Source of the DNA: Lineus longissimus
Taxonomy: Eukaryota > Nemertea > Pilidiophora > Heteronemertea > Lineidae
DNA: 64,000 nucleotides
Direction of reading: 5' to 3'
Assembly: GCF_910592395.1 (NCBI RefSeq)
Contig: NC_088322.1
Location: forward strand, 1,426,001 to 1,490,000
Numbering within the stretch: the stretch's first letter is position 1; every line of letters begins with the position of its first letter. The notes beneath the pieces were generated by a model. That model worked only from the letters and a program-made list of their open reading frames with translations, was not told the origin of the DNA and did no database searches. The position numbers and the translations under genes are program-made. This document shows positions 1 through 25,084 of the stretch, piece after piece.

Positions 1-121
1 GGAGCTCTCCTGTGTTTCTTTCCCGTTGGAGGGGGCGCAATACCGAGGCAACTAAACCGCGCCATCTGTCGCCGGATCTTAGAACTTGCAATTGCCGTGT
101 CTATTCAGATTCCACCTATAA
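1..121. repeat. Interspersed repeat R1, partial copy
   Basis: This stretch matches 12192-12319 almost base for base (shared blocks such as ggagctctcctgtgtttctt and cgccatctgtcgccggatct) but lacks a short internal segment (gtgaatttcacatg) present in the other copy. It is cut by the window edge, so its true left end is unknown. The match ends at a ttccacctat motif, which also marks the ends of the related element at 12052-12483. Confidence 0.7.
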
Positions 122-728: not shown

Positions 729-2028
729 GTGTACACTAGTAAAATATTAGCAACATTTTTACATTTCCAGTTGCAACAAATGTTGCAAAAATGTTGCGTA
801 GTGTGTACAGAGCAAAACGCGTCTTACAACATGTTGTAAAATTGTTGCAAATTAAATGCAATGCAATTCCTTGTTGCATGTTGTAAAAATGTTGCAAACT
901 CTTCAGCCAATCAGAAATAGGATTTGCGTCATGTGATCTACCGGAGTTCATGTGACTTGAACAAGAAGCAGGTATAGCAACTCTCAAGTGAGTGTCTTGC
1001 TTCGTAGGGTGATGAAACCTTTTCTAGAAGTTTTTGTATGACGGCTTGTCAGTCAGCCGCAACTCCTTTAGGCTGCGTATCCATAGGCTGTTCCGTGCCC
1101 TGCACAACATTCCCTTTTTACCAACTAGCGCGCCACACGGACAATGAACCTTCGTTGGTGTTATTGATCGTTCCCATATGTTATGCCGTGTCACATTGCG
1201 GGCATATATGCACTGTGGATTGGGAATATAGGCCCATATTGGGATTGAACATGTCCATTCTTTTGCGAGTGAACAACACGGAAGCAATGTCTGGGGCGAA
1301 ATTAATTCAAGAGGTTCATCAACGGGAACTACTCTGGGACCCCGAAACTGATGATTATCATAACAAGCACAAACCTGTAATTTGTTGCTTAAAAGTCAGG
1401 TTTTATATACATGTACATGTCAATTTGATGTTGCAAGTGAAAATACAAGTTACTTGTATTTTCATTTTCAATATTCATAAGAAATTGTCTTCTGAAATAA
1501 TGACAGCGTGCGGATAAACGCGATTGACCGCTGCGAAATGAGGACTACAAAGGCCTACATGACCAAAAAGGAATATCCAATGGAGACTCAGGGCATAGTG
1601 CCAGGTCACAAGGCTGTTACGCCATAACGCCACACTACACAAGGGCATACCCTATGGATACGCGGCCTTAACAGGCAGTGGTATGCCCCATCATCCACCC
1701 TCATTTTGATCCAGGGCCTGGTCCATATTCTCTTTGGTTATTTCGCCGCCTCTTCCGTCTCTCAACAATGACAGCTAAAATTGCTGCAGAAGCACTCAAA
1801 ACACATCTTCTCTCCTTGGAATCATCCATTTTCCCTCCAAAATACCTATTTCCCTTTGTTCCCACTAAAAAGTTTGCAACAATTTACCAACATGTTGTAA
1901 AAATGTTGCTAATTTGTTGCAATTTTGTTGCTAGTGAACACAGGGCCTTGAAGGGCTTGTTGCAAAATTGTTGTAAAAATGTTGGTAAAATGTTGGTAAA
2001 ATGTTGCTAATATTTTACTAGTGTACAC
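729..2028. mobile_element. Nonautonomous DNA element with 31-bp terminal inverted repeats
   Basis: The left end reads GTGTACACTAGTAAAATATT and continues to about 759. The same sequence, reverse complemented, lies at about 1998-2028, so the two ends pair perfectly over about 31 bp. Both subterminal regions repeat the motif gttgtaaaaatgttgc many times. There is no transposase. A clear target-site duplication could not be identified, so the superfamily is open; a CAGGG-like right end would fit hAT. A second inverted-repeat element (1071-1667) is nested inside. Confidence 0.65.
1071..1667. mobile_element. Nested PIF/Harbinger-like MITE
   Basis: Terminal inverted repeats of 17 bp, beginning GGCTGCGTATCCATAGG on the left and GGCCGCGTATCCATAGG (reverse complement) on the right, enclose 597 bp. 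TTA lies immediately outside both ends (1068-1070 and 1668-1670). A TTA target duplication with GGC-type ends is typical of Tourist/Harbinger MITEs. The element carries no transposase and sits inside the older element at 729-2028. Confidence 0.55.
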
Positions 2029-3400
2029 CCTGCTTAAGTCAAGTGAAACTCTTAACAAACCTTAGCAGAATGCCACCATTGAAATGTTGATAATAATGAT
2101 AGCAAGTAAAAACTTTAAACAGATAGACTTGATTTTTTTAACCAACTGCCACATGCGGTTTTCTTTATTTAGTAAATTTTGAGGTAAGTATTACAGAATG
2201 AAATACTTGAATACTAGAATTGCCTGGCTCTTCTGATGATTGCACTGGTGAACACCGAAGTCGATGGGATGTGCAAAGTCATAGCTCGATCCTCTCTCTT
2301 GGTCATCTTTGAGATGTGGTCACCAAATATGTTCAAATGCAGCTGCAGATCATTCCTGTCCTGCAAAACATGATGAGGAGATAACATTTTAATTTTGATA
2401 GAATAGGTAAGCTAGCCAAGTTTTATATCAAATACAAGGCCAACAACAACTGATAAGGCGCTAGGGCCGAATGATCAAGGAAGTTCATTGATGATATGAT
2501 TGGGAATACATTGTGATAAGAGTGATGAATCGGCCCCGTTTGAAGCATTGTGCCATGTACAGTGTGCAAGTGTCAGTGTGTATGGGTATCATAGCGCATT
2601 TATTGTTTGTTGACATTTCAAATCGCTGGAGTCGATCCTCAATTACACTGTTTATGTACATTGGCAACCTTACCCGATGATATCAGAACGATGTTTATTA
2701 TTGTCTTGTTTATTCACATTAGTTCTGCTATGTGACAAGAGTTATTTGTTGAGAAATCCATGATTTAAAGCCGGACTTTGACATCGTTTCTCAGACCAAC
2801 CAAGCTGCATTTCGCAGATCGTTTTTCAACGATCGTCGACGAACTATTTCAAATTAATCACATCCAATTAAACAATCCAAGCCTTTCCTAATGTCATCAA
2901 CATGCAATAACACAAGCAGCCAAATATTATCGCCTTTGAAATTGTGAATTTAATGAGAACTTACCTCTGAATTGACAGAACGCGATCTATTCCATAGCAT
3001 GGTCTCCTTACGTCTGAACTGCGCAGACTCGAGACGTGACGTTCGCTGCACGTGTGATTGGACGTGGGATAACTCGCGCGAAATTTAAAATGCTCTTCTT
3101 GGGGGGTGCTCACTAAATTGCGCCAGTAACACCACCTGGTGAGAAATTCATGAACTACGCCTATTGATAATGAAAGAGAAAGCTTTGCCCTATAAAATTA
3201 GATTTGATTCATGATCCCCAACTGAGAAATCAGCTGCTGGAAAAGTTTTTGGAAAATTTCGCTCGGTGCCACCTAGTGGCCAAACCGCTCATCCTGCCGG
3301 ACCCACATTTGGTCTATTCAGGAGTCCTGAAGGGTCTCAACGCCTCAGAGGGAAGATCTATCGCCTATCCGCCATAGTTTTGAAACGTGCCTGTTTAACG
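2029..3400. other. Non-coding stretch
   Basis: No gene, RNA or transposon end could be supported here. Short open frames show no recognisable domain. A low-complexity segment leads into the GACA microsatellite. Confidence 0.4.

Positions 3401-3451
<51 letters not shown>
3401..3451. repeat. (GACA)n microsatellite
   Basis: About 13 uninterrupted copies of the tetranucleotide GACA. It gives the illusion of an open reading frame (TDRQ repeats) at 3266-3481. Confidence 0.95.
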
Positions 3452-3510
3452 GGACACTCATTCTACCATTTACTCATATGAATAGCTCAGCTTTTCAGCT
3501 GAGCTAAAAA

Positions 3511-3670
3511 AACCCGTGTTAAACACGGGTCTAAATTAGCCCCCGATTAGCCCCATCGAGCTCGATGGGGCTAATATACACGGGGATTTGACACACGGGT
3601 CTATTTAGACACGGCAATTCATAGGTGTAAGCGCAAAAAACACGGGGATTTGATAGGTGGAAGTACGACT
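3511..3670. repeat. Interspersed repeat R2 with a 28-bp perfect palindrome
   Basis: This copy matches 12325-12483. It contains a perfect 28-bp palindrome at 3547-3574 centred on ATCGAGCTCGAT, flanked by further small hairpins (cccgtgttaaacacggg at about 3513-3529, and agctcagcttttcagctgagct just outside at 3484-3505). It ends with ttgataggtggaagtacgac. The ttccacctat/ataggtggaa end motif suggests a MITE-like origin. No coding capacity. Confidence 0.7.
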
Positions 3671-3881: not shown

Positions 3882-4485
3882 TTACTTGCCTTGAATCGGC
3901 ATGGGAACATCTTCAAATAAAGCAGCTATCTCCATGGCAACCTTAGCAAGTCCAACACTACTCAGATTTGTTATTATACCAACAACCACACCACTAGGGG
4001 GCACTGTATGACTGCCTTCACCCTCACGCGGAAGGATAACCAAGGCACTGGAAGCACCAACAGCTCCACCTGTATGTGAGATATAGAAACGCTGCTCCTG
4101 ACAACAACCATTCGTCTTCTTCTCAGGAACAACAGCCCAGCCTAAAGCAAAGTGACCATTCTTATCCCATGAGCACTTGGCCTTCTCATTCACGTCCCAA
4201 GTCTTTACTATAGTCTGCCGACTTAAATATCCTGGAAGGCCTTTTGCTTTGATTATGTCTTTTTCATGATTTACAACCAACTCCTCTGATTTATTAGACA
4301 TATGAATTCCGGTAGACAGCTCAGAAGAAAAGTTGTTTGGATGCCATTGGTAACTGTATAAAATAACATTGCCAAACTTTAACAAGTCTCCAACAGTTGA
4401 AAGTAATCCACCTCCAGCCCACTTGTAAGAGTTGTCCACGTATGGTGTATTCATTATTTTACCTTTATTGTTCCTTTCATAAAAC
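3882..4485 (-). CDS. LACTB-like exon 5 (C-terminal, HTG motif)
   Basis: 604 bp from TTTCAG|GTTTTATG to the TAA stop. It encodes FYERNNKGKIMNTPYVDNSY, KWAGGGLLSTVGDLLKFGN and SHTGGAVGASS; the HTG replaces the KTG box of classical beta-lactamases, as in LACTB. The C-terminus, ...FEDVPMPIQGK, is slightly different from the human end. Confidence 0.92.
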
Positions 4486-7400
4486 CTGAAAAAAGACAAT
4501 CAGTTCATTATTGAAAAAGTTTAATGTAGGCTTTATTCGGGAGCTTTTGGAGATAAAAGTGAAAGGAGACAATCTTGGTAATGATTGCGTGCAGCACTTG
4601 CATACATATCATGTATACCATGATGACAGTCTAGAGCTTCTACACGGTAAGTGCTTGAATACTGGGTCATGTGGGCAAAGGAATTGAATTCTGAGCCTCA
4701 ATCAGGGGCCAGTAAGGGTTTAAAACAATGTAGAGGGTATAACTAGAAGAGGGAGCATAAAGAAATTTACAGAGGAACTTCTGTGAATTCATTCTCCTTC
4801 AACTTTAACCCTTCATGGACATTATTTACCACCATCCTGAGCCTTGATTCAGAGGGCTGTGATGTGACCTTATACCAGAAGAAACTACAGCGAAGCCTGG
4901 TAAAGATTTTCTTTCGAAAATAGATGTAGACTGGCACCCCCAAAGGGGGAGGGGCAAGGTACGAACGACCCCCTTTTGGAAAGAAGTCATTGAAATTTTG
5001 AGAAGAACAACTTGCCTTGATCTTCCATAAATCAGCGGCTCGTTTTCATCCAGATACGTCCTCGTCATGCCAAGCTCTTTGAATAAACTACGCAGCATGT
5101 CCGGGAATTCCTTCTTAGTGGCGCCCTCTAACACAGCACTAACAAGCGTCCAAGCATGAGTTGAGTAGAGGAACTCAGTGCCTGGAAATAAAAAGACAGT
5201 CCAGCTCATATTCATATGAACACGTCAAGCAAAACATGTGTCTCCAATGAAATGGTCCAGGGACCATGTGCTCACCTGTTGTCCAAGGACACAAAGGAGA
5301 CAGATGTACCCATGGACAACATCATCTGTGATGTGTGGGTTCAGGGGTACATTTGTACCAAGATCTGTAGCGAATACAAAACGTGCCATTATTGCCGAAC
5401 GTTGATCCTGACGGTACACTTTGACCTCTGTGACCTTGAAAATACATCAAGTCAAGCATCCATATTATATAACACTTTAAATATTTCAGCCAGCTTTGAC
5501 CATTATCAGAGGAGTTATCACACTTTTTGTGTTTTCGCATAACGCCCCTGGTAGCCAAATGAGGACTGGTATTGGGCGGCAATTTGGCACATAATTTCCC
5601 CTTACCTTAGGATTCATTTGTACTAAGTTTGGGGTCTGTAGCTAAAGCGGTAACACAACGTGCCACTATTGTCGAATGGTGGTGCCGACAACACAATTTG
5701 ACCTCTGTGACCTTGAAAAATAGGTCGAATCAAAAATCTGTATGCCTTAAAAATGTCAGCGAGCTGTGACCATTATTACGGGAGATATAACACTTCTTGT
5801 GTTTTTGTCAACAGACCCCTGTTGGCCAAATTGGAAATCATAAGGGGCTACGATTTGGTGTCCAAGTAGCGGTCACCCAGGGGTATATGTGTACCTAGTT
5901 TAACTTCCGTAGCTTAAGGGGTTTAGAAACATGCCCCCGTCTAACGCCGGATGAATCGCTTTGACAAAGGGTCACAGGTGAGCCAAAACACAATGTACAG
6001 TCTCGCTCATATTGATATCAACACCTCCATCATACAATATCTCCCTGCCAAAACACACTGTACAGTCTCACTCATATTGATATCAACACCTCCATCATAC
6101 AATATCTCCCTGCCAAAACACACTGTACAGTCTCACTCATATTGATATCAACACCTCCATCATACAATATCTCCCTGCCAAAACACACTGTACAGTCACT
6201 CATATTGATATCAACACCTCCATCATACAATATCTCCCTGCCAAAACACACTGTACAGTCTCACTCATATTGATATCAACACCTCCATCATACAATATCT
6301 CCCTGCCAAAAAACACTGTACAGTCTCGCTCATATCAACAACACTGAAATTCTGAGACTCTAGGTTCTGCAAAAAGAGGGGACTAAGGTATCTCCATTGA
6401 AATACAGGGTGGATTGAGAGGTGACATTCGTTTGGAAGTTCCTATCTCAAACCTGCTTAAACCTAGGCCGTTTTCAAGACAAAAATGGTGTGGAGTCATC
6501 TGTTGGTGCAAGGGTGATATAAAGACATCAATGGAAAGGGCCTTGCTCCTTCTTTATCATACATCCAATGAAATATTCATGGCATCATTAATTATCACAT
6601 AAAAGCCGATTGTTTCAGGATTACCTTTTTATTGACCCACCCTCTATAACTCAAATTGATTATCTTTTCACAAAAACCAAGGTAAACACATTTTGAGTAA
6701 GGAGCAAAGACACATCATCATGCTACCTCAGTTCAAAGCTAGGAGTGAGGAGCAAAGACACATCATCATGCTACCTCAGTTCAAAGCTAGGAGTGAGGAG
6801 CAGACACATCATCATGCTACCTCAGTTCAAAGCTAGGAGTGAGGAGCAAAGGCACATCATCATGCTACCTCAGTTCAAAGCTAGGAGTAAGGAGCAAAGA
6901 CACATCATCATGCTACCTCAGTTCAAAGCTAGGAGTGAGGAGCAAAGACACATCATCATGCTACCTCAGTTCAAAGCTAGGAGTGAGGAGCAAAGACACA
7001 TCATCATGCTACCTCAGTTCAAAGCTAGGAGTGAGGAGCAGACACATCATCATGCTACCTCAGTTCAAAGCTAGGAGTGAGGAGCAAAGGCACATCATCA
7101 TGCTACCTCAGTTCAAAGCTAGGAGTGAGGAGCAAAGACACATCATCATGCTACCTCAGTTCAAAGCTAGGAGTGAGGAGCAAAGACACATCATCATGCT
7201 ACCTCAGTTCAAAGCTAGGAGTGAGGAGCAAAGACACATCATCATGCCACCTCAGTTCAAAGCTAGGAGTGAGGAGCAAAGACACATCATCATGCCACCT
7301 CAGTTCAAAGCTAGGAGTGTGGAGCAAAGACACATCATCATGCTACCTCAGTACAAAGCTAGGAGTGAGGAGCAAAGACACATCATCATGCTACCTCAGT

Positions 7401-10400
7401 ACAAAGCTAGGAGTGAGGAGCAAAGACACATCATCATGCTACCTCAGTACAAAGCTAGGAGTGAGGAGCAAAGACACATCATCATGCTACCTCAGTTCAA
7501 AGCTAGGAGTGAGGAGCAGACACATCATCATGCTACCTCAGTACAAAGCTAGGAGTGAGGAGCAAAGACACATCATCATGCTACCTCAGTACAAAGCTGG
7601 GAGTGGGGAGCAAAGACACATCATCATGCCACCTCAGTTCAAAGCTAGGAGTGTGGAGCAAAGACACATCATCATGCTACCTCAGTTCAAAGCTAGGAGT
7701 GAGGAGCAGACACATCATCATGCTACCTCAGTTCAAAGCTAGGAGTGAGGAGCAAAGACACATCATCATGCTACCTCAGTTCAAAGCTAGGAGTGAGGAG
7801 CAAAGACACATCATCATGCTACCTCAGTTCAAAGCTAGGAGTGAGGAGCAAAGACACATCATCATGCTACCTCAGTTCAAAACTAGGAGTGAGGAGCAAA
7901 GACACATCATCATGCTACCTCAGTTCAAAGCTAGGAGTGTGGAGCAAAGACACATCATCATGCCACCTCAGTTCAAAGCTAGGAGTGAGGAGCAGACACA
8001 TCATCATGCTACCTCAGTTCAAAGCTAGGAGTGAGGAGCAATGACACATCATCATGCCACCTCAGTTCAAAGCTAGGAGTGAGGAGCAAAGACACATCAT
8101 CATGCTACCTCAGTTCAAAGCTAGGAGTGAGGAGCAAAGACATTGCACTGCAAAAAACTTTGTATTATTTTTCCTCTCACCTGGCTTATGTATCAACTCA
8201 TCATCTTTAAAGATCATCAAGGCATCCTTCACACTCGCATATTTCTCCTTCAGATTATACTCCTTTATCTTTAACTCATTCTCGTTCTTGACCAACTTCT
8301 TGCCTTCTTTCTTCTCTCGTTCCTTTTCTTGCTTCTTCTTCTGAATCTCTTCAGCCGTCTCATAGTGTCTGATCCCGCTCACGTGTGACAATAGATGACG
8401 CGTTGTTATGGTAACCTGATACATGATGGAGACAATTTTACAGGGTGTGCCAACATAGTTGATAAACATGCCAAATAATCACTGGAAGGAAACGTAAGGA
8501 TCGTATCAAAATGATGTGATGAAAACATGGTGGTCAACGTAGACCACCGATCTCGATGGCCTAGTGGTCAACCTCTTGACTACCGGGCCGTTTGATATTA
8601 GAGACTTTCAGCAAAGTCTAATCTCCTACCCATATAACGTATCCCTATCAATAGCCTGTCACCTTAAGATGGAATGAATGCCCTTGCCTCGTGAATCAAA
8701 CAATGCATATATCTGATCAATCGACGGGTGAACCGGATGTTATAGATGGATATCTTTTAAGATGACATCATTACCGTTGGCTCCGTTACTCGTATCTCAA
8801 GAGGGCATGACGTGTCATAACAATATCAACTTCCACGATCATTGTTGGTTTCACTTGGATACGAGGAGTTTTTCTCGCCTATCTCGTGACTTACATGACA
8901 TTTTAGAATAAAACTTGGGTACGATTTTGTTACAATGACAGTCGTACATCTTCGGTTAAAAGCATCATTATGTTATCGAGAGAAATCTCACCAGGACGAC
9001 AGTTTATCGCCACTTTTCTTCATGAAAACCATGTTGAAGAGATACGAGAGTGCGCGCGCATGATGTTTACAAATTAGCTGTGACGCCAGCAGATATCCAT
9101 CTATTATTGGCCGATATATGACATGTCATTTTGAATACGGACAAAGCCTTTTTGAGCTGATGTTTTGTGGGTTGTCCCAGATCATTTTTAGCATTATCCT
9201 GCAAGTAACTGGTTACCTTTTCCCCCTCAAAGGTTTTCTCTGGAAATTCCTTCACATATTCTTGAACCGGTTTATCAATATCAAGTTGATTGTTCTCCAT
9301 CAGCTTGGCAACTATCGTCATGGTGATAACCTTGGAGATGCTGGCTATCCTCATGACTGTCTCCGAGTTGCAGTGGACACGATTCTCAACATCAGAATAG
9401 CCCGATCCTTCTTTCCAGACATGCTCACCATCAACACACACACCAACCACAATTCCTGGGGCACCAACCTCATCCTGAAAGAATACGATTCATTATTCAA
9501 ATGTGCGGGATCAAGAGCTCAATATCAATCTCTTAGAACCTAGATGGTCATGACATATATACAGAACTATTTTACCAATAATCTGTCCAAATGATACGAC
9601 CAGACACTTCTTCCAGCAGGAGATTTTCTACTTCCACACAAGCAAATCAGTCATCAATTGGCACAGTTAAAAACACATCGTGGAGATTCCACTTCCATAC
9701 CCGGGTGGACATAACACTCAATTCAATCAATCAAGGAGATTCGTAGGTAAAAAACTTCCTTGTTCCAATTCAATTCACTCATTCTCAACTTGTTCACCCT
9801 CAACAACAAAGACCCACAGATACCTCTGCATTGGAGAGTGCCCGTATAATCATTTGCATGGAATAAGTGTTCACTTCAATCAACATCAAACAGCTCTCTA
9901 TGGCAAAGCTCATCATTGTTCAAGTAACGGACATCGCTTGCTACATAATGGTGTTTTTTTAACCATCTACTTCATCACAGACACAAACTACACCACGTGA
10001 CCATCTATCACTTCACCATGTGCTCTTCTAAACTTAGCATATGCTGCCTCCTTGAAAAACTCTTGATCTAGCCACACCCACGCACCCTACCTCCGATCTG
10101 AGACACCATGTGACTCAAAACCTTTAGTCTGAGACACCAAGCACCATACCTCCGATTTGAGACACCATGTGACTCAAAACCTTCAGTCTGAGACACCTCA
10201 CACCCTACCTCCGATTTGAGACACCCTTCAGTCTGAGACACCAAGCACCCTACCTCCGATTTGAGACACCATGTGACTCAAAACCTTCAGTCTGAGACAC
10301 CAAGCACCCTACCTCCGATCTGAGACACCATGTGACTCAAAACCTTCACTTCAGTCTGAGACACCTCACACCCTACCTCCGATTTGAGACACCATGTGAC

Positions 10401-13400
10401 TCAAAACCTTTAGTCTGAGACACCAAGCACCATACCTCCGATTTGAGACACCATGTGACTCAAAACCTTCAGTCTGAGACACCAAGCACCACGCCTCCGA
10501 TTTGAGACACAGTGTGATCCAAGACAACATGCACCCTACCTCGGATGTGAGACCACACCATTGGGCCCAAAACCTCTGATCTGTGGCACCATGGGATCCA
10601 AAATCTCCGATCTGAGACACAATGCACCCCACCTCTGCTCTGGTGTGAGACACCATGTGATCCAATACTTCCGATCTGAGACACCATGCACCCCACCTCT
10701 GATCTGGTGTGAGACACCATGTGATCCAATACTTCCGATCTGAGACACAATGCACCCCACCTCTGCTCTGGTGTGAGACACCATGTGATCCAATACTTCC
10801 GATCTGAGACACAATGCACCCCACCTCTGCTCTGGTGTGAGACACCATGTGATCCAATACTTCCGATCTGAGACACCATGCACCCTACCTCTGATCTGAG
10901 ACATCATGGGATCCAAAACCTCTCATTGGAGGTACAACATGCCGCACCCTACCTCAGATGTGAGCCACCATTAATTGGGCCTAAAACCTCCGATTTGAGA
11001 CACCATGCACCCTACCTAAATCGAATCCGTTTCAAAGCACTTCACCACCCCATGATAAGAATCGAACCCTTGGCTTGCCCAAAGCCCTTCACCACCCGAC
11101 TGAGGAGTAAATGAGGAATGGAATCCATGACCAATCAAAGCACTATGTATCCCAGGTGCCAAGTGTCTACATGTATATGAGTTTGAAGAATCTTTGACAA
11201 GTGTTAATGTACCACCTTCAGCAAAATTTTAGAGTTTGACCTTTTTGACCTTGGAAACTAGGTTAAAATAGGTTAAAATAGTGTGACGTCACAAGGCTAG
11301 CCAATCAGCCCATTGTTTGTCAACCAATCATTTTCGCAATAAGCACCTCGCACTTCGTCCCTTTTGGAGACCAGGTATTGGTCTGAGTCGGTCTTACCCC
11401 TGACAGCAATATGTGTGGAGTCGACCAATAAAGATTAGATAAAACACAAGTAACATCAAATTTCTCAACAGTGTTATTTCATTGTTCTGTTGTTTGATAA
11501 TTTGGATGGATGAGGAAATGAATCTTGATGCTCTTTTTTCTTCACAGCAATTTTGACAATCTTAAGAAATGCGAGGTTTTTATACAAAATGGCGCTGTTG
11601 ATACCAGTGGTTTACACATGTTACACAATCGTGCAACATTGACATTTTCGCTAGGATATAATCTCCTAATGTGTTACCCATCTGTCTGGAGTTAGCCGTC
11701 TTCTAAATCAAGTTTGCTTTGAAACGGTCTCCAAATAGACCGTATGCGAAATAAATTTTGTCCATTTTGAAAAGACCTTTTCACAGGCAACGTAAGTTTA
11801 CCTCAACATGAAAGTCATGTTTTAAATCAAATCACCACCAAAAGCATTCAAAATATCATGAATATTGGAAGACATGGACAATGATTCAAGTAAATTGCTT
11901 GAATAAGCTTGTATATTTTTACTTTTTGCCATGGTAAACAAACGTTGCCTGTGAAAAGGGTCGTTTCAAAATGGCCAAAGTTTGTTTTTGCAGGCCGTCT
12001 ATTCACCTGGGATTTTAACCAATCATTCATCAATCTATCGGTTTGGCTTCATAGTTCCACCTATCATAAAACCCAGTGTTTTTTCAAGACCCGTGTCTTC
12101 GCCGTGTGTCAAAAAACCCGGGGCGCACTTAAACCTATCAGTGATGTTAGATAATGGTTAATAGCCCCGGCGACAGGTGCGCTGTAAGTAGGGAGCTCTC
12201 CTGTGTTTCTTTCCCATTGGAGGTGAATTTCACATGCGCAATACCGAGGCAACTACACCGCGCCATCTGTCGCCGGATCTTAGAACTTGCAATTGCCGTG
12301 TCTACTCAGATTCCACCTATCAAAAACCGTGTTGAACACAGGTCTAAATTAGCCCCCGATTAGCCCCATCGAGCTCGATGGGGCTAATAGACACAGGGAT
12401 TTGACACACAGGTCCATTAAGACACGGCAATTCATAGGTGTAAGCGCAAAAGACACGGGGATTTGATAGGTGGAAGTACGACTTATGTTTTTCACCAACC
12501 GCTAAGGGTAGGCTACAAGTTTGTTAACATGGTAGTGTTTTAAAAGCAATGCATATTATGGTTTAAGCGCATGCACTCTGTATTTATTATCTATTCCATA
12601 CGAATAGTGAATTTGGCAGTAATGGCCAATGCCGAGTTCTTAAAGATTCATGCACTTGATTGGGAACAACGTTTACGAGGACATTGCATTACGTCACGTC
12701 ACAGTAATGTAAGACCGTTAGAGCTGCAATGCATCGTGACGTGACGACGGCCAACACTATGTAAACGTTGTTCCCAATCAAGTACATGAATCTATAGTTA
12801 AGATGAAAAAGGAAACCTTCTCTGAAGTATTTTTCTTTTATCGTCTTAAGTTTTGAGACTACCATGGCCTGACTTAGAGTAGACCACATTCAAAAGCCGG
12901 TTAGCAGTCAGATACAAGTAGGCAAATACAAGTGCATGCACTGTCATGTCAGAATGATCCACTGTCAAGATTTGCTGTGACCGACTGGCCGACTTTCCAA
13001 TGTGGTATATTAGTAGAAGAACGACAGGTGACTCACCGGTGGCGAGGTGAAGCCGCCGCCGATGGAATCATTATGATTATACCTTTACTCTTTGGATAAT
13101 ATCTCTACTCTCTTGTATTGCATTTTCAAGTGTTCTTCTCTTCCGTGAGGCGTTCACCTGGTCCCCCTGTCCCAACACCAAGGAGGATACCGCGGTGACG
13201 TCACGGCTTTTCCAGATGGCGCTGCATATTGTAAACAAACTCGATCCACAGCCAAGGGAAAATCAAGTCATCAAAAAAGTTAGATTTTTCGCATCAAATC
13301 AGAGTTATTAGTACTTTTCTGCTATGAAATAAGTCTTCAGACAATAAGCTATCATTTGAATAATGAAAAGTGCTGTTTTGATGGGGAAAAATAGGGTTTT

Positions 13401-14352
13401 TTAAACCAAATAGCCGGCACCGATCTTCCAAAATTAGCGATGGTTTCAAAACAGTCTCCCAGATATGGGGCAATCTCTTCATTATCATAATGGGATTTGG
13501 AGGCATGTTTACAGATTTTACAAGTTCGAGACCTGTTATACCTAAAACTCGCATAGATCCCCATAGATCCCCTCTATTTGTCGAGTTAGCGCCCCTGTAA
13601 GATCATGCATTTTCGGACACTAGAACGAAATCTTCCTGCGGATATCGCGGTTTCGGTGATGATTTAAGGAGAAATTGACTGTTCTTCGAGTTGTATGGGA
13701 CAGAAATGAGTTCATACTTCATGAATACATGAATATATTATGATATGGGCGGGCTTCTAAGTCAAAACAATAACAAACTCAACTGCATCTCTACCGTGTA
13801 TCGCGTAGTGCATTGCCTAGTGTATTTCGTAGTGTATTTTAGCGGAGACATTATTTCCCATTATTTCCGCACTTTGGCCACGCCAAACGTCTTTTTTATT
13901 CGTGGAAGTTAATCTGCTCTGTAAATTTTATTCTACACAGGAAGAATCCATACTAGGTATTGCAATATTTCATGTCTATTGGTGTTTTTGTGTACAGGAG
14001 CGCACCAGACAGTGAGACGTGGAGACGTGTTCAGTGCTGGTGCTGTCAGTAGACTGAATCTGATTGGCCATAGCGATCACTAATATGGGTCGGGATCACG
14101 TGATGTGACGTCACCGCGGTATCCTCCTTGTCCCAACACTGTATCTTTGCGCAGCCAGGCAAAAGCCCCAACACAACCACACAGCACAAGAGGTGCAGAA
14201 ATGTACACCAGTGAATTCCACTTCCAGGATCGGAACTTTTGACCTCCATTATTTTCACAATAAGCCCTTTTTGGGAAGATTTTGGCACACTGAACTCTTG
14301 ACAATAATAGAACCTTTGATGCAGATCGTAATGATATAAAATTCCAGTGCAT
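3882..14352 (-). CDS. LACTB-like mitochondrial serine beta-lactamase-like protein, exon 1 interrupted by a transposon
   Basis: Five coding exons on the minus strand: 14352-14131 plus 13169-13083 (one exon, split by an insertion), 9474-9217, 8415-8181, 5181-5016, 4485-3882. With the insertion and one TSD copy removed the phases agree throughout and give 523 residues, close to the 547 of human LACTB. The LACTB family is a metazoan branch of penicillin-binding/beta-lactamase proteins that forms filaments in the mitochondrial intermembrane space and acts as a protease influencing lipid metabolism. Visible hallmarks: a basic Ser-rich leader and a membrane segment near residues 48-66, DEVGAPGIVVGV at the start of exon 2, SISK (SxxK, about 148-151), YST (about 273), a Lys/Glu-rich insert in exon 3, and HTGG (about 460). 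An in-frame stop precedes the chosen ATG. The insertion makes the present allele doubtful: unspliced translation stops inside it. Confidence 0.88.
5016..5181 (-). CDS. LACTB-like exon 4, followed by a GC-AG intron
   Basis: 166 bp encoding TEFLYSTHAWTLVSAVLEG through ENEPLIYGRSR. The YST triad corresponds to the second conserved active-site motif. The only donor that keeps the frame and the family sequence (…GRSR|FYERN…) is CAAG|GCAAGT, a GC donor with otherwise strong consensus. Confidence 0.9.
5230..5940. repeat. Diverged tandem repeat of about 290 bp within LACTB intron 3
   Basis: Two to three diverged copies share the order: cattgtacc-like segment, gtctgtagc, aaaacgtgccattattg, ttgacctctgtgaccttgaaaa, atatttcagc, and cttcttgtgtttttg. 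The tgacctctgtgacctt motif is widespread in marine invertebrate repeats. Non-coding. Confidence 0.55.
5986..6345. repeat. Minisatellite, unit about 65 bp, 5-6 copies
   Basis: Near-identical units containing cactgtacagtctcactcat, attgatatcaacacctccat and catacaatatctccctgcc repeat with a period of about 65 bp. The array lies in LACTB intron 3. Confidence 0.9.
6697..8142. repeat. Minisatellite, unit 48 bp (variants of 46), about 30 copies
   Basis: Each unit contains gaggagcaaagacacatcat, catgctacctcagttcaaag and ctaggagt. Variants alternate by cagttc/cagtac, ctacc/ccacc, gagg/gtgg and by a 2-bp loss (gagcagacac), so higher-order structure is present. Because 48 is a multiple of three it produces long open frames on the plus strand that are not genes. 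It lies in LACTB intron 3, between exons 3 and 4. Confidence 0.95.
8181..8415 (-). CDS. LACTB-like exon 3 (SH-SGIRHYE and Lys/Glu-rich insert)
   Basis: 235 bp, starting VTITTRHLLSHVSGIRHYE and continuing with a long charged segment (EEIQKKKQEKEREKKEGKK...) that is characteristic of animal LACTB. It ends ...ELIHKPG at donor CCAG|GTGAGA in phase 1. The next intron downstream carries the 48-bp and 65-bp minisatellites. Confidence 0.92.
9217..9474 (-). CDS. LACTB-like exon 2 (catalytic SxxK)
   Basis: 258 bp, phase 0 at both ends. It encodes DEVGAPGIVVGVCVDG, then YSDVENRV and MRIASISK, where Ser and Lys of SISK correspond to the nucleophile and general base of serine beta-lactamase-like enzymes, and ends at EFPEKTFEGEK. 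Acceptor TTTCAG|GATGAG and donor AAAAG|GTAACC are clear. Confidence 0.92.
10075..11020. repeat. Compound minisatellite in LACTB intron 1
   Basis: Tandem units built from two related modules: cctccgatttgagacaccat with gtgactcaaaaccttcagtc (10080-10510), and cctctgctctggtgtgagac with catgtgatccaatacttccg (10610-10900), each about 55-65 bp, with mixed edges. The theme is gagacaccatg repeated throughout. Open frames here on either strand are repeat artefacts. Confidence 0.9.
12052..12483. mobile_element. MITE-like element containing R1 and R2
   Basis: Begins agttccacctatcataaaac and ends ttgataggtggaagtac, so the ends are short inverted repeats around TTCCACCTATCA. It contains R1 (12192-12319, also at 1-121) and R2 (12325-12483, also at 3511-3670) including the same 28-bp palindrome (12360-12387). 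An internal ttccacctatc at 12311 suggests two related elements joined end to end. No coding capacity. It lies in LACTB intron 1. Confidence 0.55.
12644..12793. mobile_element. Short hairpin MITE, 150 bp
   Basis: Terminal inverted repeats of about 32 bp (left AGATTCATGCACTTGATTGG and on through gaacaacgttta; the right end mirrors it with one mismatch) enclose an inner imperfect palindrome rich in ACGTCAC. TTAA-like bases lie near both edges but not symmetrically, so the target duplication is not settled. Confidence 0.6.
13083..13178 (-). CDS. LACTB-like exon 1, downstream part
   Basis: After the insertion the frame resumes: one TSD copy, then QGDQVNASRK and the helical stretch ending ESRDIIQRVK, followed by a donor (AAAG|GTATAA). 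It joins exon 2 in phase 0 to give ...QRVK|DEVGAPG, the junction expected in LACTB proteins. This is what shows that the MITE lies inside coding sequence rather than in an intron. Confidence 0.8.
13179..14130. mobile_element. 952-bp nonautonomous element inside LACTB exon 1, 9-bp TSD
   Basis: Perfect 26-bp terminal inverted repeats (13179-13204 and 14105-14130, starting CAAGGAGGATACCGCGGTGA) are flanked by the 9-bp direct repeat TCCCAACAC (13170-13178 and 14131-14139). No transposase is encoded. A 9-bp duplication fits MULE/Mutator-type (or Merlin-type) transposition. The insertion point is within codons of the LACTB-like gene, and deleting the element plus one TSD restores an uninterrupted reading frame. 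Confidence 0.88.
14131..14352 (-). CDS. LACTB-like exon 1, upstream part (mitochondrial leader and membrane segment)
   Basis: The ATG at 14352 is preceded in frame by TGA. The first 71 codons encode a basic, Ser-rich leader (MHWNFISLRSASK...) and a hydrophobic segment ending AFAWLRKDT, as expected of a mitochondrial inner-membrane or intermembrane-space protein. Codons GTG TTG GGA (14139-14131) are the target site that is duplicated at the insertion. Reading on into the insertion gives about 17 foreign residues and then a stop. Confidence 0.8.
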
Positions 14353-16013: not shown

Positions 16014-17894
16014 TGCAGGGCCACACAGCGGGTTCCATTGGTAATGTTTGGTGGTTCGAGTGATCTGAGGATGATTACTGGACAGCCTTTTCAAGAATGA
16101 GGCGGTGTGGTGGTAAGCCTTGGATGTGCAATGTGTTGAGGAATTCGACTGGGAAGTGGCAAGGGGGAAGTGGATTGCTTCTTCTGGGGTGAGAGTGGTG
16201 TCATATGAGTGGTAGAAGTGTTGTGTACCCATTTCACAATCCCAAGAGAACCATGTACAGTGTCCTCGCGGCCCCTTCGGAGAAATTCCCGGCAGCGACG
16301 GATTTTAACAGCCTGACGAAAACGGGGAATCCCCATTTCACATTCCCCGATACCACTGACGGTCACGCACCTGTATTAAACCAATCAGCATGAGGTTGTA
16401 CCCGAAAATAGTTCAGTTTGAGATCAATGCGTGGTCTCATCATACCAGTTGAATGGTATTTTCCATTTAAGATATAATTTTTCTAAAATTGAGAATAAAG
16501 TATGTTTAAAATGAAGAAAATGATGAAGTTTCAGTCCAATTTGCTTACTTATGTGGTTTTGAGGCTCCATTTAACCCGTCGTGGTGAAAAAGCTGACTCG
16601 CTGGTTAAAAGCCATCAAAATCCCCCCCCCCCCCCCCCCCCCCTATGTCCAGACCCCCAAACCCTGAAATTATCATGCAAAACGTGTTTTTCGTTGTGTA
16701 ACACACAACGAAAATTTCATGGTTTGACAGGCTAGGATAGGTCTATTTGGCTTTGAAAGCGTTCCTCCCAGATTACATCTTGGAAAAAGTTATGAGCATG
16801 TAGAAAGTAATGTTTTAAAGGGAAAACGGCTTAAAACTTTATTACAGGTACGTGGCCTGACGAAATGCAATGTATTGATGTATACATCTTGGCTCGGATT
16901 TCCCCGTCAAATTCGTTTTTCCAGCAATTCCAAGTTTACCTATTATCAAAACAACATTCCGCATAATGTGTAAAGAGGAAGCTCTAGTGAACTCACACAA
17001 CTGTATGTCCTAGCAGACGATAGAGCAAGCTCTAGTGAACTCACACAACTGTATGTCCTAGCAGACGATTTTTAAATACATGATGTCCAACACCCGCACT
17101 TAGTGGCGCCGGTGTGAATAAATCTACTTGTGTGAATGGTCAATGGCTCATGATGGCTAGCTGATCGCGGTGGGAAAAAAACACGATTTGACCAGCCATA
17201 ACTCTCAGCTAGACAGACGGAGCAGCATAAGCTATCAATTCATCTGAGCGCACCCAACGTACGCGAAAACGGACCACTTTCAATCGCTCGGTGCGCAAAC
17301 TTGAACTTGAATTAAAAAAAATTTGCCATGTGTGAATACTACTGGCTATAAATTTCAACAATCATGTTACGTCACGTAGACTCGTTTAAAAATACCACAA
17401 AGGCCAAGTTTCCGCGAAGTTATGTCACTTGTTGTCCGACTCCTGTTCATCCGACCGTGACCTCAGTATTTGACCAATCTGCTTTGTATCGTGAGCATTT
17501 TCGTGTATGGGTCAATGAATTTGATTGAAAATCACAATTTGAATAGAAGAGTGGTTTGGTAAGCTCTCTGACGTAACGTACTCAATACGAGGCGTTGAAT
17601 TTGGCTGTGTTCCTGGTATGACAGACCGGTTTTGGGAGTTCAGCCTGATTTCTTCACAACTTTTCTCCCCAAATTTTGCGACTATTGTCTGATACAATGT
17701 ACAATCTTATCTTATCTTTTCATTTTCATTTCTTGCAGACGCCAGACACGTTGTCCTGTCTAGCACACCCAATGCTGCCCAACCGGTTTATCACAAGATA
17801 CGACGTGAACACCACAATGGTGAGTTATTTTACTCTATCGAAACTTCCTTGATCGCACATACATGTATTCTTTTGAAACTTCTCATCTCTGCAG
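16014..17894. other. Non-coding stretch with homopolymer and short tandem duplication
   Basis: A run of 22 C lies at 16622-16643. A 48-bp tandem duplication (agctctagtgaactcacaca…) occupies about 16979-17069. No coding exon could be supported. Confidence 0.45.
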
Positions 17895-18087
17895 CAGTGG
17901 CGGATCCAGAAATTTGGGAAAGACGCGGGGGGCCGGGGGGGGGGGGGGGGGGGGCGCTGCTCCACCAATGAGAACTCATGATAGAGCCGAAGGTGCAATC
18001 CTGAAAATGAGGGGAGGGTTCTTGAGGAGAGGTGCCCTAAAATATCAAAAAGGGATGACTCATGCGGGACCCCTAAATCCGCCACTG
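17895..18087. mobile_element. hAT-like MITE, 193 bp
   Basis: The ends CAGTGGCGGATCCAG and (reverse complement) CAGTGGCGGATTTAG are typical hAT termini. The flanking octamers CTCTGCAG and CTGTTCTG are only partly alike, so the 8-bp duplication has decayed or the ends are slightly misplaced. A run of 20 G lies inside at 17935-17954. Confidence 0.6.
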
Positions 18088-18416
18088 CTGTTCTGAATAT
18101 TTCCACACTCGGTTCAGCAGACCTTAGAAAGGAGGACACTGTTAGCCCATACCCTATCTATGGTACTATATCGTTCTGGCAGCAAGAAAATGAGACGATC
18201 GGTCACATGTCTGCCATGTTTTATGACGTCACGCGCCACGTGCTTGGCGCAATGTGTCACGTGCTCATAACACATTCTACCTCTGAACCAATCAGCCCTT
18301 GATAATGTGACATGTGATATGTATGATGAGGACCTTGACCGGATCAGAAAGATAATTCAATCGAAGTAGTTCAGAGACATTTACATGAAGACATGGCAGA
18401 AATGACCAATCGTCTC

Positions 18417-18670
18417 GGTGATCACTAAATCCTACAGGCTAGAGGGAGGTAATTATAATATGATCTCCACCGCCCGACCCGATGACGTCATTACCGGAAT
18501 TCCGGGTGGCAACTTCTAGCTCATCGATTACTTAACTGAAGTTGCCGCCATTGTGATGTAAATACTAGGGGTATTTCCCACCCTGAATTCCGGTAATGAC
18601 GTCATCGGGTCGGGCGGTGGAGATCATATTATAATTACCTCCCTCTAGCCTTTAGGATTTAGTGATCACC
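18417..18670. mobile_element. Fold-back MITE, 254 bp, 9-bp TSD
   Basis: Starts GGTGATCACTAAATCC and ends with its reverse complement. The arms pair over about 90 bp (through ctccaccgcccgacccgatg and acgtcattaccggaatt), leaving a short unpaired centre, so the whole element can fold into one hairpin. The direct repeat AATCGTCTC flanks it (18408-18416 and 18671-18679). Confidence 0.88.
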
Positions 18671-18679
18671 AATCGTCTC

Positions 18680-19680
18680 ATTTCACCTCTGTGCTGCCAA
18701 CTGTGCGACGATCGAGGATCAGTCGGAGATCAGCATCCCAGAGCTTTGATAAACCTTCCATTTGTTCCCAGGCTTGTGTTATGAAATGACCATGGTTTAG
18801 TGATAGGCCTACCCCCACTTGTATTCAGTGGTATTAAATGGACAACTGTGGAATGAGATATGGTGGTTTTTCCTACAAAAATGGCTTCCAGTAGAACCGT
18901 GACTTCTCAGTCCAAACAGGAAAATTGAAATACATCATTGAACTGCAATAAACAGTGCACAAAAACTGGGTGTAACCTTAGGCCTGCCTGAATTTCACAG
19001 GTCATGTCCAAAACTGCCTCGCACACTGGCGAAAATCGTCATTTGAGATAAGTGGCGGTGCATGGTGACAAGCAGAGGTACTATCCTCCTGGCCAGGGAA
19101 ATCCCACACCCAGGTTGTCCCTTTAAAGTTGACATGCATGCATAAAAACCCTAACGGCCAAATTAGAAAAGACGGAAAGGATGAAGTGGCGAGGGTTCCG
19201 AGTTCGAACCCGCTCGAGGAATAATTTTTTGTTTTTTCTTTCTCTGTGACCTGTCTCGTCAATGAACTTGTGTTTCTGCAGTCAAGTGAGACCTGTCGCT
19301 GGGTGTCTATCATGTTTCAAGTGCAGTTTGTCTTTTGGTGGTCGGGCGTTTGTGTTTTCTATCTTTGTCGTTTGGGTTTTTATGCATGCACGTCAGCTTA
19401 AAGTAGGTTTTTGCGTGGTCACGAAGATGATATGTGAATAATGACACCAATGCATTGGCCCTGCGGTCACGTGGTGGCTTTCAAAGATATCCTTGTGCCG
19501 TCGGTAGGAAGCTGCTGAAAGCCGCAGCAAACCAGCAGCAAACAAAAGACTTAGGCTACTTAAAATCTCGGGAGAAGTAATAATCTCGTCACCATTGAGT
19601 TTTACCTATAGCTCCTATACAAGTACATGTATAAAGATGGTGTGCGAAGATAAATTTCGGCCATTTTGTTACCATTTTAA
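18680..19680. other. Non-coding stretch
   Basis: No exon supported. A single Pol III B-box-like sequence (gagttcgaacccgctcgagg, about 19200-19219) followed by a T-rich tract may be the remnant of a tRNA-derived SINE, but no A box is clear. Confidence 0.35.
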
Positions 19681-19682
19681 TA

Positions 19683-20405
19683 GCTAACTGTATGCGCATG
19701 TTTAATCGCCCGCCCGCGAAGTTTTTCCCTGAACCTTTCGGGCAGTACAGTGTACATTTGTACACAGGTTCTCAGCCAATCAGAATCCGATAAATCTGTG
19801 TCGTCTTCAGGGCGTCATCATGAAACTTAGAAGTAAGCTTGTATTGTTTTGTGCTTGTTGCTCAAATTGAAGCATACAGTATCAAAATATACTGGAGGAA
19901 GACCATACACACGAGGTAGTATCGAAAGACAAGTCTCATTGCAGAGAAACATATTCCTACTGGAGGAAGACCATTCGAATGAGACAAGTCTCATTGTATA
20001 TTCATGCTCAATATGATATCTGAAGGACTATCCCTTGGATCTTGGAGATGGGCTATTGTTATTGTCCTTTCTGTAGGTATGTTGCAGGCAGCAGAAATAA
20101 CTAAAATATCTAAAATCTAAATAACAAGGGAAAAGAAACGCGCTATAAAAATAAAATATAAAGAGTAAAAAAGAAAAAGAAAAATGTTGTCCACAACCGG
20201 ATTCGAACTCACGACCTTTGGATCGAACATCGTATTCTACTATTTCTGACGAGCGCTCTACCAACTGCTCTAAAGTTTCTAAGACTTCTGACGTCATGTA
20301 TTTGTCGAAATCTGATTGGCTGAAAGTCCCAATGTACACTATAGTGACCAAAAGGTTCAGGAAAAAAAAATTCGCTACCCGCCCTTTTCAGATTGACAGT
20401 TAGCC
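19683..20405. mobile_element. Inverted-repeat pair enclosing a tRNA-like sequence
   Basis: About 100 bp on the left (gctaactgtatgcgc…, ccctgaacctttcgggcagt, tctcagccaatcagaatccg) matches the reverse complement of about 20290-20405 (…ccaatcagattt…, cctgaaccttttggtcac, ggctaactgtcaatc) at moderate identity. This looks like a diverged MITE or inverted-repeat element. No target duplication was found. Confidence 0.5.
20188..20276 (-). repeat. tRNA-like sequence, probably tRNA-derived SINE or decayed tRNA gene
   Basis: On the minus strand an A-box-like TAGAGCAGTTGGTAGAGCGC is followed about 50 bases later by a B-box-like GAGTTCGAATCCGG, the normal Pol III spacing. A T-rich tract follows (TTTTTCTTTTTC). 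The acceptor stem does not pair convincingly and the anticodon arm is unclear, so a functional tRNA is not claimed. Confidence 0.45.
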
Positions 20406-21530
20406 CATCTATCACTTCGATCTATCTACCGTAACTGTCATGGCCAATACTTTTTCTTTCAGAAGCCCCGACGTCCTTTGAACTTTCAAGAAATGGTTGG
20501 GTTTGGTCAAGGGACTGGTATTGGATCTGATATATTATCATTGTTGTCACACCTTTTCGCTAAATATGAGGTCTTGAAAATGCTTGGTATTGCTCCTTGT
20601 GAGGTGTTACCCAATGTTAATGACGCCTGTCTGTATAAGTGGTACATACTTGACACCTATGGCGAAGGATGAGCCAGTTATTTTCGAGTTTGTACTTTGG
20701 GTGCATCTCGTTCCTCGGGTTGCATTGCGCCCGCGACCCCATAGGAGTTCCTGGTCTTGTCTCTTCGCCCCCAACCCCGATAAACTCTATGTACCGTGAA
20801 CGAATGCTCATCAGGTCGACAGTTATTTGACGACGTAAATCCATCCATATTAACTGGCGCTGCGGCTGCGCTCAATAGACTCCGTTGGGGAGTCTGAGCC
20901 TGATAGGGTGTACCAGTCCAGCCGGTTATGTACGGTTGGTATGCTCTATGATATGGATCTCCAGCCACCTGTCAGCTAGGGGCAGACCCCAGTGTCTCAA
21001 CCCTGGGTCTCAGAGGCGGTAACTTCTAGTCAGGCAGCGCGCTATGTCTGGTTAGGCGACATGGGTTACCAGGGCATCCACAGCCAAAATGGTTTGCACA
21101 TGGAGGTCATCGCGACCGACTTGTGAGGGGGAAGAAGTGATGTCCATGGCGGTTTCAAATTGATCTGACGACCCCCGCGTCTTCTGGACAGGGAGGGGTT
21201 CATGTGGCCAAATCCTGTCAGCTAAATCCTATCGTTAGCATCGTTCGCGGTTCATGGAAACCAAGGGCATGGAACCCTTTTTTGTCTTGGTTTAATTTCT
21301 CTGAGGATTTCAATGATGATGTATATATTTAGATCCACAGGTATAGTCGGTACATGTGGCGACTCGCCACATGAACATTTTAAAAGTTTTTTTCGAGCAT
21401 TGTTAAAAGTTATGAGAATAAATTTCTTCTTTGGACGTGTTTTTTTTTACCAGAATGACAATCAAAAAGTTTGTCACTGGAGAATTTCCCCATCCCCACC
21501 CCAGCCCTAGAATAATATACAGACTAAATA
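20406..21530. other. Non-coding stretch
   Basis: No gene or repeat could be supported. Open frames are short and unlike any known family. Confidence 0.35.
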
Positions 21531-21536
21531 GTATCT

Positions 21537-21812
21537 TTGGACTGTACTGGTAATATAGGTCAGTCACGAAAAATGCTGAAATATATATTGGACTGTACTG
21601 GTAACATAGTTCAGTCACGAAGAATAGAATGTATATTGGACTGTACTGGTAATATAGGTCAGTCACGAAAAATGAAATATATATTGGACTGTACTGGTAA
21701 TATAGGTCGGTCACGAAGAATAGAATGATATTGGACTGTACTGGTAATAGAGGTCAGTCAAAAAAAGAAATATATATTGGACTGTACTGGTAATATAGGT
21801 CAGTCACAAAAA
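21537..21812. repeat. Minisatellite, unit about 46-51 bp, 6 copies
   Basis: Units contain ttggactgtactggtaatat and aggtcagtcacgaaaaat. Copies differ by small indels, which produce short repetitive open frames on both strands that are not genes. Confidence 0.9.
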
Positions 21813-22262
21813 TATCTGAAAGTCTGTGCCCCATTGTTGACGAATATAATATCGTGAGGACATTATCAATAGTCACGGTCCCTGGCCCCTCCCACATAAA
21901 AATCATTAGCAAGGTCACTGCAGGCAATAGCTTCAGCGTTGTTATTGTATAAACATGTCTTAAACATTATAAACGGCCCTATTTGTGGGGTTACATTGGG
22001 TTCTTGCTGGGGTAATGATGTCCATGTCCGATTCTGCGTTTTGTGGACTTGTAAATCAGTCCAGCAGTGACATTGCGTTTTGTGGACATGTAAGTCTGTC
22101 CCGCAGTACCAAGTTTCACCCCAGCAATAACCAACAAGACCTGCACGTGACCTTAAAGTAAATAGCTATGCAAGTGTGGTCGAGACAAAACGCGATGTAT
22201 GCATTGGAAGAAGGAAATCTGCGAAGAGTAGCAGGAACTGTCTGTCCAGCTCTCGTTTATGA

Positions 22263-22313
22263 AACAATGGGCGATTTGAAAGACGTCTCCTGAACAGATC
22301 GCCCATTGTTCAC
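22263..22313. repeat. Short hairpin
   Basis: aacaatgggcgat and its reverse complement atcgcccattgtt form a 13-bp stem with a loop of about 24 bases. It could be a fold-back remnant. Confidence 0.5.
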
Positions 22314-25023
22314 TGAAGCAGCAGTCGAATTGTCTCCAATTTTTTCAGGGGGATTGCTCCATCTCGTGTGGTTTCGCTGTCTCGTCCCAAGAATCGAGCC
22401 AACGCGACCGAGGCCACTTCTGAGAGATAAATATTCAGGATGCCAGATTTATGGAACACAATTGAGGTAAATGAGATAAAATTCGATAAGCTGCTACAGT
22501 TGATGAAATGAGGCTTTAGGTCCGTCATCATGTGACTGATATTGGGACAAACCTGAGGCAGGTTGACCACCATTGCCTGACAATTCAATTTAATTGATTC
22601 ATCATATTAGTGCCAATGAGGCTGTCACAGACATAAACATGTGTATAGACATATTACTGATATGCTATACACCTTTCCAGAAATGGGGCGCTGAGTGTCC
22701 GAAATAGTGATGTCAGAAGGAGAAACTAGGCCTTATGGTGGAGGGACAAAGGAGAAAGTCATGGTTGACCAACACTCTTGAATGCCTTTATTGACGGACA
22801 AGGGGGAAGCCACCAATTTCGGGGAGCATGTATAATAGAAGATTTTAAAAAAAAACGTCATGAAAAATGATCAAATACTTCAATTTCTTAAATTGTATAT
22901 TTCAATGTTTCTTGGTATCTAAATCTTCCCTTTCTATTCCAGGCCAGTAGTCAAGAGCCATGATCAGGGAACAGCAGTTCCCAACGGAATTGACCCTTTT
23001 CTTGTTGTTATTCATGCTGTTGGCTCAGAATGGGTTGACACTCACCTGTTTTCGACCCTGAAAATTAAACATCGAACATTGTTACTCTTTGTTAAAAGTG
23101 AACCTTGCAAAATATGTGCTTATTCCTGAAATCAATAGCACTTCATGTATGTACTCGCTGATCCAGAATATTGCTATTTCTTGTTCCGTTTTCAATGTGG
23201 CAATCTATTTACCGTATCTGAGCTATTTCACAGCACAAGAAGTGCAACATTACAACAATGGAGCTATTTCTTGATCACAGCAAAAATGTGTTTCCACATT
23301 GTTTTACTCAAATGATGCATGGTTGAGCCTTATTGACATATTTGTTTTCAAGAGGAATTGCTTGTAGGTTTTCTTTCTTTTTTCTTAAGGCAGGCCTAAT
23401 TTAACAGAAGGCCTATATTTTAGGTAGGATATTATTTATACTATAGGCCCATATCAGTTTTGAGATCAATTTCCTCTTGAAGACAATAAACGTCAATCGA
23501 GTCTCTGCACCATTTGATTAGGCGGTTTTGGGCTAAAATACAGTACAAGAGAATGCTCCATTGGTGTTAACAGAATATGTCATTGTTTTGGTCAGCAATC
23601 AGTTCTTGCCACCTTGAAAGCGGTCACGGTTACTTACGACTTGTACATTGTTCAAGTGTTATTATGCTATTGTCATTTGCCTTTGCCCCCCCCCCCCCCC
23701 CCCCCCCATCCTTATCGACACTCACAGTGCACCACCCTCAATCCCATGCCCCGCATGCGCACTCACCCAACATCTGATCCCTTGACACGCTTGTTCAAGC
23801 GGCTCAAGCGGCGTCAGTAGTATCAACGTTGTGTTATTGTATTCCAAGTTTTGCATTATTCATATGCATGTACTTGCCAAATAAATGTTGTCATATCAGA
23901 ACCTTCTTCTCTTGTCCTTCGGTCAATAAGTGTGCGGATCACTCCCAACAAGTTCGATTAACACACTACACTATCTTCACTTGCAACAATTTACTGTCAG
24001 CCTTTTCTGATTCCGCATGCCGGCCACTAATTCTTTCTCTTCTAAGTCTTTCAGCGTGGGGGACACTCTCGAAAAGTGAGATTTATGCACTTACCAAATG
24101 CACCTTCTTCACCAAAAATACCTCACGCCTGCGGTCAGGGACGAAATAGCCAGAGTCTGTACCGTAACTTAATTTGCATTCAACCCGAATGAGATACCCA
24201 ACTTGTATGTAAGCAGTTGACGATCGAGAAGAAGAGACAGTTTTTCCAAGCCTTGCGGAGACCAACGTCTATGTATGACGACAGTTCTGAAGAGCTCTGT
24301 CTGGTTTCCTATATCTGTATAGTCATCATGGTATCAATGATTGAGCCGATTTACGAATATCGCGTGACTGAACTTAAGTAGGATTTCATGACACCACAGA
24401 CCATCTTTCTAACATCTTCGCTCGTGAGGGCTTGCGAAATCTGCCTAGATAAATTTTTTTTACTGACAAAAGTCCTATTTCTCCACGACTCACGGAAAAT
24501 AACTGGCGCTCAATGTGTGTATCTATGTGTCCCTGGAGTTCGAAGGATGTGACATTACAGAGCGTCCGATTTAGTCTTGTGAAGAGACGCGAATTATTCC
24601 AGGACATTCAAACTTGTGTTGTATCCTATCCTTACGATGTATGGTTATCCCTACAGATGTGCTAAAAGCCCTGTCTCTTTAGTATTGGATGAGGCATCCT
24701 GCAGACAGTCCGCTGTACGCTCTTGAGAGAGACACTGACACCCCATCTCTGCCCAGAGTAACCCGTGCTTAGAGTAACTGGTAAACCGCTATCGTCACTT
24801 GAAGACAAAGCATTTGCTGGTGTTTATTCATATCATCTCCTCAAACACTACTCGAGTACTTCTTGGGTGGTACCTGATACGAGACAACTAACTGAGCTAT
24901 AACTCACCTGAAGTGCTATTTGATAAGGGCACATGAGCTGTGTCCCTTTAGTTCGAAGGATGTGACACCTCACAGTGTCCAATGCGGCTCCTTGAGAGAA
25001 AAAGACACTAATACATTCACAGG

Positions 25024-25084
25024 ACTTTCAAACTGCTGGGAGCGTCCCTACAGACTTTCAAACTGCTGGGAGCGTCCCTACAGA
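25024..25084. repeat. 30-bp tandem duplication
   Basis: gactttcaaactgctgggag followed by cgtccctaca is present twice in direct tandem. Confidence 0.9.

Follow-up and report, generated by a model that had tools for sequence, protein, structure and literature searches.

A 64,000-nucleotide stretch of the Lineus longissimus genome (C15:1426001-1490000, hereafter the window) raises the question of whether a transposon has destroyed a gene. A sequence-only reading had placed a mobile element inside an otherwise complete LACTB-like gene, and had taken that gene to have been broken by a recent insertion, leaving an allele that is either null or rescued by splicing. Loss for the animal is not inferable from a single locus, since a gene found broken there may have near-identical copies elsewhere. 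We searched the L. longissimus genome (391,118,348 bases; the accessible text of PMC8593623 gives an assembly size of 391 Mb). LACTB is present there in seven copies, and in the window copy exon 1 was probably broken by the insertion of a non-autonomous Mutator-like element. The features on which the argument turns are the following.

14140..14352, minus strand: LACTB exon 1a, codons 1-71, with the ATG at 14352
14131..14139, strand not given: target duplication (TSD) TCCCAACAC, 9 bp, exact, on the exon 1a side
13179..14130: non-autonomous Mutator-like element, a deletion derivative (basis: perfect TIRs, 9-bp TSD, collinear pieces on a 16,184-bp MULE)
14105..14130, minus strand: right TIR, 26 bp, from comparison of the TIR arms
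14080..14082, minus strand: the native frame, 90 codons long in the filled copy, meets its first stop here
13179..13204, plus strand: left TIR, 26 bp, from comparison of the TIR arms
13170..13178, strand not given: TSD TCCCAACAC, 9 bp, exact, on the exon 1b side
13083..13178, minus strand: LACTB exon 1b, codons 72-103, with one TSD copy within it and the donor GTATAA next to it
9217..9474, minus strand: LACTB exon 2, starting DEVGAPG, with the SISK motif
8181..8415, minus strand: LACTB exon 3
5016..5181, minus strand: LACTB exon 4, with a GC donor
3882..4485, minus strand: LACTB exon 5, with the HTGG motif and the stop codon

The element (window 13179-14130) interrupts the coding portion of exon 1 in a minus-strand gene. 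Its TIR arms are complementary at 26 of 26 positions and an exact 9-bp repeat borders it on both sides, which confirms the 952-bp length, perfect 26-bp TIRs and TSD described earlier, with exact coordinates. The flanks have two more bases (TG) in common beyond the TSD, and a repeat of up to 11 bp would formally be possible; we favour 9 bp because of the symmetry of the TIRs and because exact 9-bp TSDs occur in 22 of 25 inspected copies of the family. The reading frames of the element are interrupted by stops, and it has no transposase of its own.

When the element and one TSD are left out, exon 1 is a single open frame of 309 nt, from the ATG at 14352 to 13083, with a GT donor next to it. The frame ends in ...SRDIIQRVK and exon 2 opens with DEVGAPG at 9474, as had been read from the window. 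The introns are three GT-AG introns and a last GC-AG intron, and the conceptual protein, with the element left out, has 523 residues. The exon 2 product matches the Pfam family Beta-lactamase with 73.4 bits, and its best matches among solved structures (PDB) are human LACTB chains (2e-35). In the protein search (7,991 candidates scored; 912 matching proteins, 120 of them listed), the best match was the L. longissimus LACTB protein of 523 aa, at 99% over 100% of the query. Of its 523 residues, 4 are different in the window copy, and the protein runs uninterrupted through the insertion site. Like LACTB, the mitochondrial serine beta-lactamase-like protein, the conceptual protein has the SISK (SxxK) motif, invariant in ten aligned LACTB proteins, and a basic N-terminus (7 K/R vs 1 D/E in residues 1-40) with a hydrophobic segment that peaks at residues 47-65. 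A literature search for LACTB together with Nemertea found nothing. Intron 4 starts with GC in all seven copies of the gene (GCAAGT; GCAAGA in the C17 copy c436), the window donor lying at 5016, and intron 3 of the window copy contains a 48-bp minisatellite of about 30 copies (window 6695-8142) that is open in more than one frame.

Each LACTB exon occurs seven times in the genome: one instance lies on C15, where exon 1 is split in two, and six lie on C17, spread between 27 kb and 1.39 Mb; one further, weak match lies on C8 (protein search of the genome, 37 matches, 39 of 39 candidates scored). The six C17 copies provide empty sites. In each of them the flanks are joined directly, the target sequence is present once and the frames are open, and the TIR was looked for at the insertion site and was absent (6/6). 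Therefore the flanks are contiguous coding sequence. Contiguity, checked against these homologues, holds in the L. longissimus protein and the six C17 copies alike, all of which read straight across the site; the same sequences establish that the element lies in the coding part of exon 1, and that the continuous frame proposed for the window is a real arrangement. The conceptual CDS of all seven copies is 1572 nt long with a single terminal stop (the window copy without the element), and the C17 copy near 944 kb (c944) encodes the database LACTB protein without a single difference over 523 residues. At codon 81 the window copy has Ala and all six C17 copies have Val. The locus thus combines a clean insertion in a coding exon with six empty sites from the same genome as controls. 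Unlike LACTB as otherwise known, the gene is present here in seven near-identical copies, with the window copy interrupted.

The inserted element belongs to a large family. With up to three mismatches, the TIR occurs 578 times in forward and 562 times in reverse orientation (1,140 in the genome), and a reversed-pattern control in the same genome gave no match; therefore the TIR is not a product of chance. A search with the whole element gave 721 candidate places; the best 40 were scored, and all of them cover positions 1-952 at 99-100%. Among 25 distinct copies taken from the first listed loci, a non-random sample, the exact 9-bp TSD is missing only from three, and lengths are 952-953 bp in 10 and 924-945 bp in 15. 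The TIR sequence was absent from viral contigs and was not found in the literature searched.

The parentage of the family is indicated by a larger element with the same ends. MULE-domain matches number at least 127 in the genome (150 of 235 candidates scored). A locus on C1 was picked for follow-up, with a perfect TIR 3.3 kb from its MULE match; four other MULE loci were without such a TIR in the 3.3 kb examined around each. The C1 element (C1:15600619-15616802) is 16,184 bp long and is bordered on both sides by the 9-bp TSD CATGATTCC; its right TIR is perfect and its left TIR is 3 bp short. Its open reading frames match the MULE domain (PF10551) with 54.7 bits (cut-off 27.6) and the ZSWIM1-3 RNaseH-like domain (PF21056) with 107.5 bits, and ZSWIM3_N with 27.2 bits, just under the cut-off of 27.8. 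The window element aligns to it as four ordered pieces (1-67, 64-592, 588-907 and 903-947), with identities of 97, 96, 94 and 91%, respectively. Adjacent pieces have 4 or 5 bases in common, the pattern that deletion at short repeats would leave. Segment 64-578 is present four times in the C1 element, 1,902 bp apart, in a 1.9-kb unit beside the transposase gene. Since its pieces are collinear with a transposase-bearing MULE that has a TSD, we conclude from the alignment that the window element is an internal-deletion derivative of a Mutator-like element, which the large C1 element or its kin would mobilise. Three other superfamilies, hAT, P and Merlin, had been considered on TSD length and were dropped once the MULE with the same ends was found.

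In the accessible text of PMC6446971, the MULE superfamily is described as having TSDs of 8-11 bp, SWIM fingers and TIRs that are commonly hundreds of bp long. The 9-bp TSD of the window element falls within that range, and the element resembles MULEs in its TIRs and in its collinear, same-ended relative with a MULE-domain transposase; it differs in having no transposase itself and in TIRs of 26 bp. The C1 relative, 16.2 kb with its four 1.9-kb units, is longer than complete arthropod MULEs, for which the accessible text of PMC13359780 gives 1.4-10.0 kb. The family is also MITE-like, in that its many near-identical copies are short, have no recognised long open reading frame and share their ends with a larger element, and the window element is non-coding and deletion-derived from a larger transposon. 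At 952 bp, however, it would be long for a MITE by the usual size limit. These results tie a large family of insertions in a ribbon worm to a transposase-bearing Mutator-like element.

The divergence of the LACTB copies bears on the order of events. An alignment with 5,404 shared columns puts the window copy 70 to 95 sites (1.3-1.8%) away from five C17 copies and 127 sites (2.35%) away from c944, 79 of the latter in the exon-1 block, where columns may be partly misaligned. The seven copies are about 1-2.6% apart, the closest pair of all being the C17 copies near 319 kb (c319) and 35 kb (c35), with 52 differing sites. Their tree is nearly star-like and puts the window copy beside c436 with 76% support. 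The simplest history is a single insertion into the window copy once the copies had separated, because the element is missing from all six C17 copies. Four substitutions and one indel separate the window element from a consensus built on 10 group-A copies, of which it is one, and the insertion is apparently recent. To this extent the claim of a gene broken by a recent insertion stands; the gene is one of seven near-identical copies, however, and LACTB as such is therefore not lost.

We propose that a non-autonomous element from a much-multiplied Mutator-like family entered one LACTB copy in exon 1 and duplicated 9 bp of target there, its mobility presumably supplied in trans by a MULE/ZSWIM-type transposase. 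The insertion would have hit the C15 copy, in a stretch related to C17, after the copies separated, and the other six copies, with their open frames, would carry the function. Because six uninterrupted copies exist in the same genome, the insertion looks like the ordinary loss of one redundant LACTB copy.

The relationship of C15 to C17 extends well beyond the gene. Four places on C17 match window 54.6-57.6 kb at 97-99% (40 scored of 2,252 candidates). For window 25.2-27.6 kb, matches at 97-99% lie on C17 near c436, c35 and the copy c1385 (15 of 3,972 candidates scored). Matches at window 17.6-21.7 kb count less, since they fall within a dispersed repeat (window 17.0-25.1 kb). The matching pieces have the same order and orientation on C17 as on C15; from LACTB to the 54.6-kb piece the distance is about 40 kb in the window, 51 kb at c1385 and larger at the other copies. 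Outside the window, C15:1340001-1343000 matches C17:870629-873613 at 96% over its full length, and a query from C15:1.56 Mb consists of dispersed repeats. On C15, sequence related to C17 at 96-99% thus reaches from 1.340 Mb to 1.484 Mb or beyond, as judged from separate tested pieces. Window 3505 was considered as an end of the duplication and rejected, since the stop of similarity seen there in four of the six copies is the edge of a dispersed repeat.

With tested pieces between 1.340 and 1.484 Mb matching at 96-99%, the C15 block could be a haplotype variant, or a part of the C17 array misplaced on C15, in which case one of the C17 copies would have the insertion as an allele. A divergence of 1.3-1.8% could also be allelic, and the accessible text of PMC8593623 states that the assembly is not fully phased and that five haplotypic duplications were taken out by curation. 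The same text describes Hi-C scaffolding and manual curation, however, and no single C17 copy is specially near the window copy, which differs from them at 70 to 127 of 5,404 columns; c319 and c35 (52) are nearer to each other than any other two copies. We regard a misplaced or allelic block as rather unlikely.

The seven copies are a more unusual fact than the insertion. The ratio of summed dN to summed dS over the 21 pairs of copies is 0.27, a value that old polymorphism or gene conversion may distort, and the copies are therefore constrained on average. Two of the C17 copies, c35 and c319, carry Glu in place of Gly 463 (G463E). This glycine belongs to the HTGG motif and does not vary among ten aligned LACTB proteins; the two copies may be impaired in catalysis. 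We consider it possible, if rather unlikely, that LACTB is in the middle of an amplification, in which seven copies would be kept for dose or diverging roles and single ones would decay by different routes, through the transposon on C15 and through G463E. If so, the genome would offer, for a mitochondrial protein that forms filaments, a natural series of variants in dosage and damage.

For the window copy itself, the native frame with the element in place comprises 90 codons, of which 74 are from LACTB and 16 from the element; codons 72-74 are repeated on both sides of the insertion. The LACTB part takes in the basic N-terminus and the first VLG, together with the hydrophobic peak (residues 47-65). 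The filled copy would yield at best a 90-residue product without the catalytic domain. A stop that precedes the introns of a gene generally leads to mRNA decay, and because this one precedes all four, the mRNA is probably degraded. The filled copy is therefore likeliest to be null, judging by its predicted frame, as one of the two outcomes of the sequence-only reading had it.

The other outcome, in which part of exon 1 is spliced out together with the element as a new intron and LACTB is still made, seems to us quite improbable. Exact removal of the 961 nt is excluded for canonical ends, as none of the 12 possible offsets has GT-AG, GC-AG or AT-AC ends. Inexact removal has more scope, in that 108 single introns with canonical ends would leave some frame open; it would need poor sites, however. 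Scored with an untrained splice-site matrix, the best frame-restoring intron reaches a combined -0.6 (donor -2.3, acceptor 1.8) and eats into the hydrophobic segment, and the one that loses VLGQ only reaches -5.8 (donor -5.3, acceptor -0.5), vs 6.2 and 4.8 for native introns 1 and 2. The donors of these introns score at most 0.1 among the 15 of the 108 pairs shown. Less probable still is a new start from the element or nearby sequence that would give a shortened LACTB without its targeting sequence: each TIR contains TGACGTCA, a putative CREB/ATF site, but the frame running from the element into exon 1b has no ATG, and past the insertion the native sequence offers no Met before residue 144, right before the SISK motif.

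Several other features surround the locus. Just 3' of LACTB lies a dispersed repeat of about 3.4 kb (window 118-3512) with 34 near-full-length copies elsewhere at 96-99% (among 40 scored of 1,700 candidates), and a second, of about 8 kb (window about 17022-25054), has long matches on many contigs at roughly 93-96%. A short, mostly palindromic dispersed repeat is found 3' of exon 1 (window 12641-12797), where 33 of 40 scored places, of 515 candidates, match that part only. Three near-identical sets of open reading frames (window 31753-32121, 37813-38181 and 43873-44178) mark a tandem repeat of about 6.06 kb, one frame of which has a sub-threshold match to EGF_3. Three further near-identical frames of 240-253 aa lie at window 28671-29393, 51888-52610 and 53814-54575, the first of them matching Laminin_G_3 with 27.5 bits, just under the cut-off of 27.6. 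Finally, a 361-aa open frame at window 58469-59554 has DDE_1 and HTH_Tnp_Tc5 domains and is a pogo/Tigger-like transposase.
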